Both the position numbers and the translations under genes were made by a program. From contig NZ_JAMHFY010000002.1 in assembly GCF_023897015.1 (NCBI RefSeq), positions 124,001-188,000 of the forward strand: a stretch of 64,000 nt of DNA, in the 5' to 3' direction. Source of the DNA: Desulfosporosinus nitroreducens (lineage in GTDB: Bacteria > Bacillota > Desulfitobacteriia > Desulfitobacteriales > Desulfitobacteriaceae). Under the pieces are notes generated by a model. That model had not been told where the DNA came from. It searched no databases and saw only the letters and a list, made by a program, of their open reading frames with translations. This document shows positions 31,194 to 36,118 of the stretch, one piece after another. How positions within the stretch are numbered: the first letter of the stretch is position 1; the number at the start of each line of letters is the position of its first letter.

Positions 31194-33800
31194 TTAACTC
31201 ACTTTATCTTTAAGGAGAGAAAATGAATAGTTCCCCACTTCGTCAACATCTACAAAGATTTCTTGCCCCTCCTTAAATTCTCCTTTCAGGAGTTTGAAAG
31301 CTAAAGAGTTTTGCAAACGTTGTTGAATCACTCGTTTAAGAGGCCTCGCTCCGTAAATTGGGTCATACCCTTCATTCGTAAGTTGTTCCTTTGCCTTTGA
31401 TGATAGGGTCAGTGTCAGTTTGCTTTCACTTAAGCGTTTACGTAGCTGACCAAGCTGAATATCGACAATCTGACCAATATGCTGACGTCCAAGTGGATGG
31501 AAGATTATAATTTCATCAAGACGATTGAGAAATTCCGGCCGGAAATAATGTCGAAGTTCTTCATTAATGCTGGATCGTACTTCTTCCTTGCCAGCGTTGC
31601 GTTGGGTTAATTCTTGAATAGTCGGGCTGGCAATATTACTGGTTAAGATCACTACTGTGTTTTTAAAATTTACTATTCGGCCCTGACCATCGGTTAACCT
31701 TCCATCATCTAGAAGTTGCAATAATATATTGGAAACATCGCTATGCGCTTTCTCTACTTCGTCAAAGAGAATGACACTGTAAGGTTTACGTCGGACGGCT
31801 TCTGTGAGTTGTCCACCCTCTTCATAACCGACATATCCGGGAGGAGCTCCGATCAGTCGTGACACAGAATGTTTTTCCATATACTCGGACATGTCAATCC
31901 GAACCATTGCTTGTTCATCATCAAAGAGGAATTCTGCCAACGCCCTTGAAAGCTCTGTCTTCCCTACCCCCGTAGGGCCTAGGAAAAGGAATGAACCTAG
32001 GGGTCGATTTGAGTCTTGCAACCCTGCTCGCGCTCGACGCACGGCATCGGCAACAGCACGAACAGCTTCTTCTTGACCAATAACTCGCTGATGAATTCGA
32101 TCTTCCATCTGAATGAGCTTTTGCATCTCACTTTCCATTAATTTGGAAACGGGAACATGGGTCCAAGTTGCCACGATTTCCGCAATGTCTTGTTCAATTA
32201 CTTCTTGTTTCAGTAAAGTATTTTTCTTATCTTGCAGTTTTTCCTCCGTGCTTTTCAGTTCTTTTTCCAAATTAGGGATTATTCCGTATTGGAGCTCTGC
32301 AGCTTTATTATAGTCAAGTTGCTGTTGAGCTTGCTCCATTAAGATACGTGAACGATCTACTTCTTCTTTTAGTTGTTGAATCCTAACAAGAGTTTCACGT
32401 TCTCCCTGCAACTGAGCCTCCATGCCAAAACGTTCTTCCTTAAGATTACCTAATTCTTCCTCAATTTTCGCTAAGCGCTCTTTACTGGCCTCATCCTTTT
32501 CTTTCCTCAAGGCTTCCCGTTCTATTTCGAGTTGCATCATTCGACGTTTAATTTGGTCTAAATCATGAGGGTCACTAGTAATTTCCATACGCATGCGTGC
32601 ACCGGCTTCATCAATTAAATCAATTGCTTTATCAGGCAGGAAGCGGTCACTAATATAACGATCTGAAAGAACAGCTGCCGCAATAATTGCCCCGTCAGTA
32701 ATTCGTACACCGTGATGTGTTTCGTAGCGTTCTTTAAGACCGCGCAGAATTGAAATAGTATCTTCCACTGTGGGGGCTTCCACCATAATAGGTTGGAATC
32801 GCCGTTCGAGAGCGGCATCCTTCTCAATGTGCTTGCGATATTCTGCGAGTGTTGTAGCTCCCAGCATACTGAGTTCTCCTCGAGCAAGCATCGGCTTGAG
32901 CATATTACTGGCATCCATTGCTCCTTCAGCAGCTCCGGCCCCTACAACTGTATGCAGTTCATCAATAAATAAGATTACATCATCACGGTCCTGGATTTCT
33001 TTGAGTACGGCTTTCAATCGTTCTTCGAACTCCCCACGATACTTGGCTCCAGCAATTAAGGTTCCCATATCAAGAGAAATCACCTGTTTATCCTTAATTG
33101 CCTCTGGGACATCTCCACGCACAATTCTTTGAGCTAAACCTTCTGCGATGGCTGTTTTACCAACCCCTGGCTCACCAATGAGGACAGGGTTATTTTTCGT
33201 GCGTCTGGATAGAGTTTGAATAACCCTGCGAATTTCTTCGTCACGGCCAATAACTGGATCTAGACGTCCACGCCTTGCTTGTTGCACTAAGTTAAGCCCA
33301 TATTGCTCGAGAGCAGCGTAGGTCCCTTCAGGATTAGGACTCGTGACACGTTGGGTTCCCCTAACTTCACGCAATGCTTGAAGCAATTTTTCCCGAGTTA
33401 ATCCGGCTTGCTTTAGAACTTGTTGGGCAGACCCTCCGGCCTTTTCCCAGATCCCAAGCAGTAAATGTTCTGTACTGACGTATTCATCGCCAAACGGTGC
33501 CATCTCATCATGAGCAGCTACCAAAACACTGCGCAAGCGGGGAGAAATGCTCATTTGCACATTGCCGCCGCTAATTCGGGGAAAGCGGTTGATCTCTTGA
33601 CGCATAGTTTGGATGAGGGATCCAACTGCCATGCCTAGTTTAGTTAATACTTGAGGAACAACGCCATCACCTTGCTCTAAGAGGGTGAGTAATAGATGCT
33701 CCGGTTCAACTAGACTGTTCCCGTTGCGTTCCGCCATTGTTTGGGCACCTGTGATTGCTTCCTGTGATTTCTGGGTAAAACGGTTGGTATCAAATGACAT
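31194..33800 (-). CDS. clpB: ATP-dependent disaggregase ClpB
   Basis: The 868-residue chaperone has the Clp N-domain repeats (residues 1-145), a first AAA+ module with GEPGVGKT near 210, the long coiled-coil middle domain (about 410-525), and a second AAA+ module with GPTGVGKT near 610 and [11 protein letters not shown]. It disentangles protein aggregates together with DnaK/DnaJ. It follows the J-domain gene by 54 bases and is probably cotranscribed behind the CtsR-like promoter at about 35 kb. Confidence 0.96.
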
Positions 33801-33854: not shown

Positions 33855-34847
33855 CTACAGAACAACTCCTCGTTTATCAGCCAGGTCACGCAGAGCCGTA
33901 ATTTCTGAATCACTCATATTTTCGGGTAACTTAATTGAAACTTCCACAAAAAGATCCCCCTGTTGAGCAGGCTTTTCTAAATTTGGCATACCTTTGCCCT
34001 TCAGGCGAAATTTCTTTCCGTTTTGGGAAAGAGGCGGAATTTTTAGCAAGACTTCACCGCTAAAAGTTTTGACACTGACTTCTCCGCCTAAAACCGCTCG
34101 ATAAAAATCAACCGGGATCTCGGCCCTTAAGTCATCTCCATCGCGAACGAAATAGGGATGCGGGCTTACCGTTATAATTAAATAGAGGTTCCCAGCTGGT
34201 CCGCCCGAAATTCCCGGACTGCCTTGACCTGAAAGCCGTACCTTAGAACCGGTCCGTACCCCTTTTGGGATCTTAGCCTCAATTTGCTTTTCACCTGTTC
34301 GAATGACTCTCGTTGTACCAGTATAAGATTCCTCTAGAGTTACTTGAACTTCAACTTCAAGATCCTGGCCTTGACGGGGACGACCAGCAGCGGGCCCTCC
34401 GCCAAATCCTCGGCCTGGTCCTCCAACTCCTCCAAAGAGAGTTGAGAAGAAGTCAGAGTATCCTTCCCCTCCAAAATTAAATCCACCGGTTTTACCCGAG
34501 CCACCGAACATTTCTGCAAAATCTTCCGGGGACATGGTATAGGTATGTCCTCCGCTCCCTCCACTGGGATTCGATTGCCAACGATCCCAATTATAATCCC
34601 CACGTCCTCCACGAGCTTTCCATTGTTGATAGTCTTGACGCAACTCGTCGTATTTACGTCGCTTTTCAGGATCACTAATTGCTTGATATGCCTCCGTAGC
34701 CTCTTTGAATTTTTCTTCAGCAACTTTATCTCCGGGATTAACATCCGGATGATACTTTTTAGCTAGTTTCTGAAAAGCTTTCTTAATGGTTTTTTCATCG
34801 GCATCGGCTGAAACACCTAAGCTCACATAATAGTCTTTAAAGTCCAT
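33855..34847 (-). CDS. CbpA-type J-domain co-chaperone (no zinc finger)
   Basis: The 330-residue protein has an N-terminal J-domain with HPD at residues 33-35. A glycine/phenylalanine-rich stretch follows (about 90-155), then two C-terminal substrate-binding domains (GQDLEVEVQVTLEESYTGT and FLVEVSIKLPE-type ends). The CxxCxGxG zinc repeats of true DnaJ are absent, so it is a DnaJ class II/CbpA-like protein. It is the first gene of a two-gene unit with clpB, a sensible pairing for heat-stress disaggregation. Confidence 0.92.
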   Translation of the reverse strand: MDFKDYYVSLGVSADADEKTIKKAFQKLAKKYHPDVNPGDKVAEEKFKEATEAYQAISDPEKRRKYDELRQDYQQWKARGGRGDYNWDRWQSNPSGGSGGHTYTMSPEDFAEMFGGSGKTGGFNFGGEGYSDFFSTLFGGVGGPGRGFGGGPAAGRPRQGQDLEVEVQVTLEESYTGTTRVIRTGEKQIEAKIPKGVRTGSKVRLSGQGSPGISGGPAGNLYLIITVSPHPYFVRDGDDLRAEIPVDFYRAVLGGEVSVKTFSGEVLLKIPPLSQNGKKFRLKGKGMPNLEKPAQQGDLFVEVSIKLPENMSDSEITALRDLADKRGVVL

Positions 34848-34965
34848 ACTTTCACCTCATAACACTACGTTTAGTCAGCATTATTTTATATAGAGTAACT
34901 ATTCCCTAGATTTTTATATCCTAAAAGACTCTTAATAATTTAGAGTATTTTTCCTTGTTATCAAA

Positions 34966-35033
34966 ATTATAGTCTATTTTCTTTTAAAGGTCAATATTGG
35001 TCAGACATTTATTTGACCAATATTGACCTTTAA
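34966..35033 (-). promoter_or_regulatory. CtsR-like operator and sigma-A promoter of the J-protein/clpB operon
   Basis: On the minus strand TTGACC (34989-34994) and TATAAT (34966-34971) are 17 bases apart. A 20-bp inverted repeat (34984-35003 and 35014-35033) covers the -35. Within it GGTCAATATTGGTCAAA (complement of 35012-35028) differs by one base from the CtsR heptad repeat GGTCAAA-N3-GGTCAAA. The opposite arm carries a weaker copy. This fits heat-shock control by CtsR; the regulator gene is not in the window. Confidence 0.75.
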
Positions 35034-35090
35034 GTATTATCTTTTTACTCTTTAGAATACTTTTTTACCCAACAGAATTTGCAATTAAAA

Positions 35091-35132
35091 CAGAGATAGG
35101 TTTCATAGAACATCTATGAATACCTATCCCTG
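35091..35132 (-). terminator. Terminator of the lipid kinase gene
   Basis: An imperfect stem of about 15 bp (GATAGGT...TCATAGA pairing with TCTATGA...ACCTATC) is followed by TTTT on the minus strand. Confidence 0.65.
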
Positions 35133-35188
35133 AAATAAGCGGATGCACTCAATTAAATTTTCAGGCAGGTTTAGAGCCGGCAAATCAT

Positions 35189-36118
35189 TTAACCCCATAA
35201 ACAAAGAATACGAGGAATAACTTTAAGCTGGATAGGTCCTTGACCGGGTTGCTCCCCATCAATATCCAGCAGAATTTTTTCAGCTGAAGTAATGACTACG
35301 GAGCGACCGCGCAGCACGCTAACCCCAGGGATCGAAAGATGAGTGCCCCGATAGATTTTTGGTATATGCCGTAAAATAGTCCAGGTTGAAAAGTCTCCTA
35401 AGAATACTATATCAAAACGACCATCATCAAGTTCTGCATGCGGTGCGATCATCATTCCACCACCAATATAACGACCGTTTGCTACCATAATACTATTAAG
35501 GCGACCATTACAAATTAGTTTCCCATCGATTTGACAGCTCATAACTTTATTACTGTAACGAAGTATGCTTATTACTGATCCAATAAGAAAAGATAGTTTA
35601 CCTCCAAGCAACTTACTTTGCTGATTGACGCGAGCAACTGTCTCCCCACCTAAACCAACGTCTGCAACGTTAAGGAAATAACGGTGGATCTGCTGTCCAT
35701 AATTATCATGAAAGAGGACTTCCCCGACATCGATTTTTCGTTTTCGACCTTGTTTCAGAATATCGATAAAACCCTCAATTCCTTTAGGAATTTGTAAGGT
35801 GCGAATAAAGTCGCATCCAGTACCATGTGAAAAAACGGCTAGCTCTGCCTGCGGGTTAATCAGCTGATTATTAGAGAAAAATCCATTAACTACTTCATTC
35901 ATAGTCCCGTCTCCCCCGACAGAAATGATGCGATTACACCCTTCTTTCAAGGCTTTTTGAGTGATATGAATTGCATCCCCAGGTCCAGAGGTATAAGTGA
36001 AGTCGATAGGATATCCTTCTTCTCGCAGTCGTTTCAAATACTGAGGCCATCGTTTAAGAGTACTGCCATTGGATGAATGCGGATTTACAACAGCGAACCA
36101 GTAGTTACTTATTTGCAT
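35189..36118 (-). CDS. YegS/BmrU-type lipid kinase
   Basis: The 309-residue protein has the diacylglycerol-kinase catalytic motif ISVGGDGTMNEVVNG and the N-terminal FAVVNPHSSNG of the YegS/DgkB family. Members phosphorylate lipids such as diacylglycerol at the membrane. I start it at the ATG 8 bases after AAAGGGAG; nine upstream codons stay open but have no binding site. The C-terminal domain (ILLDIDGEQPGQGPIQLKVIPR) is typical. Monocistronic. Confidence 0.9.
   Translation of the reverse strand: MQISNYWFAVVNPHSSNGSTLKRWPQYLKRLREEGYPIDFTYTSGPGDAIHITQKALKEGCNRIISVGGDGTMNEVVNGFFSNNQLINPQAELAVFSHGTGCDFIRTLQIPKGIEGFIDILKQGRKRKIDVGEVLFHDNYGQQIHRYFLNVADVGLGGETVARVNQQSKLLGGKLSFLIGSVISILRYSNKVMSCQIDGKLICNGRLNSIMVANGRYIGGGMMIAPHAELDDGRFDIVFLGDFSTWTILRHIPKIYRGTHLSIPGVSVLRGRSVVITSAEKILLDIDGEQPGQGPIQLKVIPRILCLWG

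Follow-up and report, generated by a model that had tools for sequence, protein, structure and literature searches.

CtsR is the main repressor of Clp and chaperone genes in many Gram-positive bacteria and has been described as a dimer bound to one direct repeat. Its classic operator, in Bacillus subtilis and other Firmicutes, is the heptanucleotide direct repeat RGTCAAA-NAN-RGTCAAA. According to the available text of two sources, the dimer sits on a direct repeat over the promoter and lets go of DNA on heating through a glycine-rich loop (PMC12634643, PMC5506225), and control is tighter where CtsR sites are more numerous (PMC5506225). The clpE promoter of B. subtilis has five such sites, linked with complete repression, their orientation being left unstated in the part of the source available (PMC12634643). 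In Streptococcus thermophilus, clpL rises about threefold in a ctsR mutant, and the accessible portion of that report names a single box, ATTGACTTTTACTGACC (PMC3192767).

Here we describe a site in a 64,000-nucleotide window from Desulfosporosinus nitroreducens, in which a promoter upstream of a cbpA-clpB operon is overlapped by a pair of CtsR-type boxes that face each other. Like the classic operator, the site has RGTCA half-sites in twos with a 10-bp period over a Clp/chaperone promoter, in a genome with ctsR-mcsA-mcsB-clpC; unlike it, the site has two facing repeats separated by a 10-bp gap, T rather than A as the middle base of the spacer, and cbpA-clpB as the target operon. It shares the use of several CtsR sites per promoter with B. 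subtilis clpE, but has two sites where five are reported there (PMC12634643, available text). The S. thermophilus clpL promoter is similar in that ATTGACTTTTACTGACC is a reverse-reading CtsR box holding TTGACT, with repression by CtsR shown through the mutant, and differs in the one box named in the text at hand (PMC3192767). The CIRCE operator of HrcA is likewise an inverted repeat at chaperone promoters, but its sequence is unrelated. Facing CtsR boxes are not described in the portions of the literature that we searched, including PMC12634643, PMC6305308, PMC1409795, PMC3192767, PMC3616900, PMC3828012, PMC5506225, PMC3842655 and PMC3472708; the founding and other key CtsR papers lie outside this set, so absence of the layout from print is not established. 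The same literature contains no paper joining CtsR with Desulfosporosinus or Desulfitobacterium.

Inverted repeat at the cbpA-clpB promoter

The operon lies on the minus strand and begins with a cbpA-type gene (33855-34847), whose 330-residue J-protein has DnaJ and DnaJ_C domains only (Pfam PF00226 and PF01556) and matches no NCBIfam equivalog above its cut-off. The second gene, clpB (31194-33800, minus strand), encodes 868 residues and scores 1,351 bits against NCBIfam TIGR03346, for which the cut-off is 1,232. Upstream of cbpA, a promoter search finds the -35 hexamer TTGACC (34989-34994) and the -10 hexamer TATAAT (34966-34971) on the minus strand, 17 bp apart; with 11 of 12 consensus bases, this is a near-consensus, strong promoter. 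The longest perfect inverted repeat, which comprises both boxes and their flanks (34984-35033), has 20-bp arms at 34984-35003 and 35014-35033 with 10 bp between them. Each arm contains the core GGTCA-N5-GGTCA. The near box reads on the plus strand, opposite to the operon (core 34989-35003; 17-mer GGTCAATATTGGTCAGA at 34989-35005), and its outermost half-site, also the outermost of the near arm, is the -35 of the cbpA promoter. The far box faces it across the 10-bp gap on the minus strand (core 35014-35028; 17-mer GGTCAATATTGGTCAAA at 35012-35028).

Both boxes are thus direct repeats of RGTCA-type heptads with a 3-bp spacer, as in CtsR operators, and the near box overlaps the promoter of its target gene. 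An earlier, sequence-only reading of this DNA had pointed to the 17-bp promoter spacing, to the -35 inside a 20-bp inverted repeat and to CtsR-type direct repeats facing each other from the two arms, all of which our analysis bears out. Its count of a single mismatch, in the near arm, needs correction: three positions of the near box and two of the far box depart from the strict consensus RGTCAAA-NAN-RGTCAAA, and one position in each, at the centre of the spacer, departs from the relaxed consensus of the literature, RGTCADN-NAN-RGTCADN. The window holds the four-half-site layout once, and 0 of 100 dinucleotide shuffles contain it; in the organism's own 5.46-Mb genome the facing pair is found once and its reversed control not at all.

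Such a repeat might instead be an intrinsic terminator or RNA hairpin belonging to the upstream lipid-kinase gene, and the minus strand can indeed form a stem of 20 bp (-29.6 kcal/mol, z -7.1). However, the terminator-like match is on the plus strand only, whereas the genes on either side are encoded on the minus strand; on the transcribed strand the stem is followed by AAGAAAATAG, with no T run, and so lacks the form of an intrinsic terminator. The stem is upstream of the -10, so that transcription of cbpA from this promoter begins beyond the repeat and yields an RNA without the hairpin, which is moreover absent wherever the far arm is absent. We regard a terminator or RNA hairpin as exceedingly improbable. 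The region 34500-35500 gives no Rfam match at the gathering score, and the CIRCE sequence TTAGCACTC-N9-GAGTGCTAA has no match in the window with up to three mismatches, so that the repeat does not belong to the HrcA operators.

CtsR and other CtsR-type boxes in the genome

The sequence-only reading would have been abandoned had the genome contained no ctsR, and it proposed looking for the gene near clpC. We find one CtsR gene (E = 6.8e-35) with both CtsR domains (PF05848 and PF17727), whose product aligns with the crystallised CtsR 3h0d over 149 residues, the GGGG loop included. The gene heads an operon in the order ctsR-mcsA-mcsB-clpC, where the McsA-type match scores below the NCBIfam cut-off, the McsB-type stretch is partial and the clpC-type gene was read from the sequence. 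Its own promoter carries a box, GGTCAGGAAAGGTCA, and an RGTCA-N5-RGTCA box reading in the same direction as the gene lies upstream of ctsR at all 30 loci compared from this and related genomes. The clpP box, GGTCAGTTAAGGTCA, reads against its gene, and its inner half-site is the -35 of TTGACC-17-TAAAAT.

A genome-wide motif scan, also suggested earlier, finds boxes at ctsR and clpP; the 25 exact matches to RGTCA-N5-RGTCA are not enriched over the 31 of the reversed control, and 4 of the 25 lie at three CtsR-regulon genes. Since single boxes are not enriched across the genome, the case made here is based on position and conservation and not on motif counts. CtsR itself was matched in 58 of the 60 genomes searched. 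One genome of the same genus (G043, 99% complete) has no CtsR match and so is a naturally occurring case in which to see whether the boxes disappear along with ctsR.

Conservation of the near and far boxes

We compared 30 cbpA upstream regions from this and related genomes (L002-L031; the underlying search matched 39 of 40 genomes, weaker matches being assigned no locus). The near box, as TGACC-N5-TGACC, is upstream of cbpA at every one of the 30 orthologous promoters, whereas the far box is intact at 12 and lost or degraded at the other 18. Averaged over columns, conservation is 0.96-1.0 for the near box and 0.49-0.60 for the far region, the within-genus value of the latter being 0.51. The far box is dispensable, given its loss or degradation at 18 loci, among them that of G018, whose CbpA is 98% identical. 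Judged by these alignments, the near box is the constant element and the far box a changeable addition. The gap beside the near box (35004-35013; operon-strand consensus aaaaatgtc) has a conservation of 0.80-0.84 in L002-L031, although most of these loci are without an intact far box.

Of the 60 genomes, 15 have a facing pair: 13 among 29 from the same genus, 1 among 7 from the same family and 1 among 24 from the same order. The same-family pair (G049) is again at cbpA-clpB; the same-order pair (G035) is at clpP, with a gap of 9 bp and a proximal box that provides TTGACC-17-TATAAT. On a quick tree of 32 CbpA proteins, the facing or not-facing state needs six changes.

These patterns fit a reading in which the near box alone is the operator and the far box is a functionless inverted copy, incidental or in decay: the near box is universal among the cbpA loci and the far box is not, the far region is poorly conserved even within the genus, and six changes on the tree mean a state that is easily gained or lost. 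We nevertheless consider this reading unlikely, since other groups have facing pairs at various genes of the CtsR regulon, with gaps that cluster, as set out below.

The pairing of CbpA with clpB under a CtsR box, which had been thought unusual, turns out to be standard in this lineage: the near box precedes cbpA at all 30 loci, and clpB stands directly behind it at 29. At the remaining locus (L016, from G022) other genes follow cbpA. The cbpA matches at L019 and L020 are reported with one internal stop codon each.

Facing pairs across bacterial species

To place the layout more broadly, we scanned 84,980 species, one genome each, for GGTCA-N5-RGTCA-N7..13-TGACY-N5-TGACC, with exact half-sites and gaps of 7-13 bp only. 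The scan returned 70 places, against about 6-7 expected by chance by our own arithmetic (38 bits, 7 gaps, 257 Gb). At 61 of the 70, a CtsR-regulon-type gene lies within 1,500 bp in the right direction, although these places share descent within genes and therefore represent fewer than 61 independent events. They comprise 29 clpL, 13 ctsR, 10 cbpA-clpB, 5 clpB or clpE and 4 hsp20 places (the ClpL, ClpE and Hsp20 references were derived from the matched loci themselves, and some families were checked by Pfam). The other nine are in Alteromonas (3), Planctomycetota (2), Chitinophagales, Leptothrix and Catenuloplanes, with one inside a Khoudiadiopia gene. Judged from these matches, the facing layout is one that recurs at heat-shock genes of several Gram-positive groups. 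Earlier it had been presented as a peculiarity of this promoter; it is found as well at clpL, ctsR, clpB, clpE and hsp20 promoters and, in one case, at clpP. The scan also rules out a layout unique to the genus.

The gaps at the 61 regulon places are 10 bp (27 places), 7 bp (14), 11 bp (11) and 9 bp (9), with none at 8, 12 or 13 bp within the 7-13 bp allowed; the 14 gap-7 places are all streptococcal clpL. The nine non-regulon places have gaps of 7 (4), 12 (3) and 13 bp (2). This clustering, together with recurrence at different genes, argues against the far box being incidental.

The promoters have a geometry in common. At all 61 places, the best promoter takes its -35 from a TTGACC or TTGACT of the gene-proximal box, but the promoter search favours TTGAC hexamers by design, and the -10 was therefore tested separately. 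A -10 with at least four of six bases exactly 17 bp on was present towards the gene at 58 of 60 places versus 16 of 60 in the direction away from it (L153, at a contig end, was excluded). The half-site used as -35 is the inner one at 50 of the 61, including the 29 facing clpL places, and the outer one at 11, namely the ten cbpA promoters and one Paradesulfitobacterium clpB; the outer position is 10 bp further on, or about one helical turn. With its 10-bp gap and its -35 in the gene-proximal box, the D. nitroreducens site belongs to the class of facing-pair operators that we propose here (gap 7-11 bp, -35 in the gene-proximal box).

The distribution of the pattern also bears on whether the resemblance to CtsR boxes is coincidental, the palindrome being the site of another regulator or a cruciform. 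Single CtsR-like boxes are frequent by chance, as the genome scan showed, and the cbpA arms agree even in their N5 linkers (0.96 within a locus versus 0.81 across loci), as the arms of an ordinary palindrome would. One arm may have been copied onto the other recently, giving rise to that agreement. The clpL arms behave differently, with linker matches of 0.52 within and 0.51 across loci, where the search itself fixes the half-sites. When a genome lacks the far arm, in turn, its near box remains an intact direct repeat, and 61 of the 70 places with the facing pattern are at CtsR-regulon-type genes. A coincidental likeness is very improbable on this evidence, and the boxes are very likely CtsR sites.

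Eight ctsR promoters (L127, L137, L151, L166, L167, L182, L185 and L186) carry three CtsR-like boxes, the facing pair and, just past the -10, one in forward orientation. Another place, L142, is on a contig titled as a Bacteroides sp. metagenome-assembled genome with a ctsR promoter typical of clostridia, and is probably mis-binned.

Gap classes and other multi-box forms

Allowing gaps of 0-30 bp in selected groups gave a finer view of the spacing. In Streptococcus, 23 of 197 genomes match, with gaps of 7 (9 places), 9 (5), 10 (5) and 11 bp (4). That all 23 have one of these four spacings when 0-30 bp was allowed argues further against an incidental far box, although all are at clpL and hence share descent. 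The order around a Ruminococcaceae genome has 10 places, spread over 9 of 212 genomes, nine of the places being at ctsR with gaps of 10, 10, 18, 18, 18, 18, 19, 4 and 7 bp; the tenth, with a gap of 21 bp, is not near a regulon-type gene. The L217 region contains a gap-7 and a gap-4 pair together. At the ctsR promoters L213-L216 and L219, where the gap is 18-19 bp, the best -35-like hexamer is located in the gap itself. This class, found at ctsR promoters of one clostridial order, is wider than the common class by about one helical turn. A single fixed gap is ruled out by the spacings of 4, 7, 10, 18 and 19 bp at ctsR promoters.

The order around a Calidifontibacillus genome has matches in 6 of 224 genomes, two at clpE with a gap of 9 bp and four at a gap-3 palindrome. 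The latter (L222-L225, 4 of 224 genomes) is conserved, with GGTCA and AGTCA half-sites, upstream of an apparent smpB; it looks unrelated to CtsR and is perhaps a terminator.

Among 398 genomes of the organism's own phylum, again with gaps of 0-30 bp, the facing pair occurs in 1, tandem boxes in 12 and back-to-back boxes in 4; in at least 4 of the 12 tandem genomes the match adjoins ctsR by its coordinates. Facing boxes are thus ruled out as the usual multi-box form in this phylum. By these counts, the facing pair is a minority arrangement that is used repeatedly, at various CtsR genes, and most of its gaps fall in two bands.

A predicted CtsR operator

We propose that the inverted repeat is the operator through which CtsR controls the cbpA-clpB heat-shock operon, its near box serving to block RNA polymerase and its far box to add a second dimer, and we put the probability of this reading at about 0.74. 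The prediction follows from the box sequences, their overlap with the promoter, a ctsR gene that has a box of its own, the conservation of the near box and the recurrence of the layout at CtsR-regulon-type genes. Weighing against it are the dispensability of the far box, the lack of enrichment of single boxes across the genome, the two to three positions at which the strict consensus is missed and the gaps of 4 and 18-19 bp at ctsR promoters elsewhere. The initial observation was right, and the oddities claimed for it are weaker than stated.

In the absence of stress, the near box would be occupied by a CtsR dimer that covers the -35 and keeps RNA polymerase from the promoter, a step that is well supported by analogy with described CtsR operators and by conservation. 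Repression would be strengthened by another dimer, bound to the far box in a symmetrical position 10 bp away; recurrence of the layout and clustering of its gaps suggest that the two dimers may touch and cooperate. On heating, by the release mechanism published for other species, the thermosensing glycine loop of CtsR would let the DNA go, and McsA, McsB and ClpC would remove the repressor. The near-consensus promoter would then fire and give a joint increase of J-protein and ClpB disaggregase, in keeping with the CtsR binding and heat induction that we predict for this operon.

More tentatively, facing CtsR boxes could be a separate class of operator in Firmicutes, on which two dimers bind in a symmetrical arrangement and assist each other, a broader proposal that we hold to be possible but doubtful. 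If it is true, such operators would repress more tightly than a single box and switch more steeply with heat. The allowed gaps, 7-11 bp and, about one turn wider, 18-19 bp, and the position of the -35 in the gene-proximal box would be fixed by contact between the dimers, and the Desulfosporosinus -35 would have shifted outward by one half-site (10 bp, about one turn) with the frame unchanged.

The recurring facing layout with its clustered gaps amounts to a concrete, testable hypothesis of contact between CtsR dimers on DNA. For the far box, close Desulfosporosinus relatives with and without it are natural variants in which its contribution to control of the cbpA-clpB operon may be compared.
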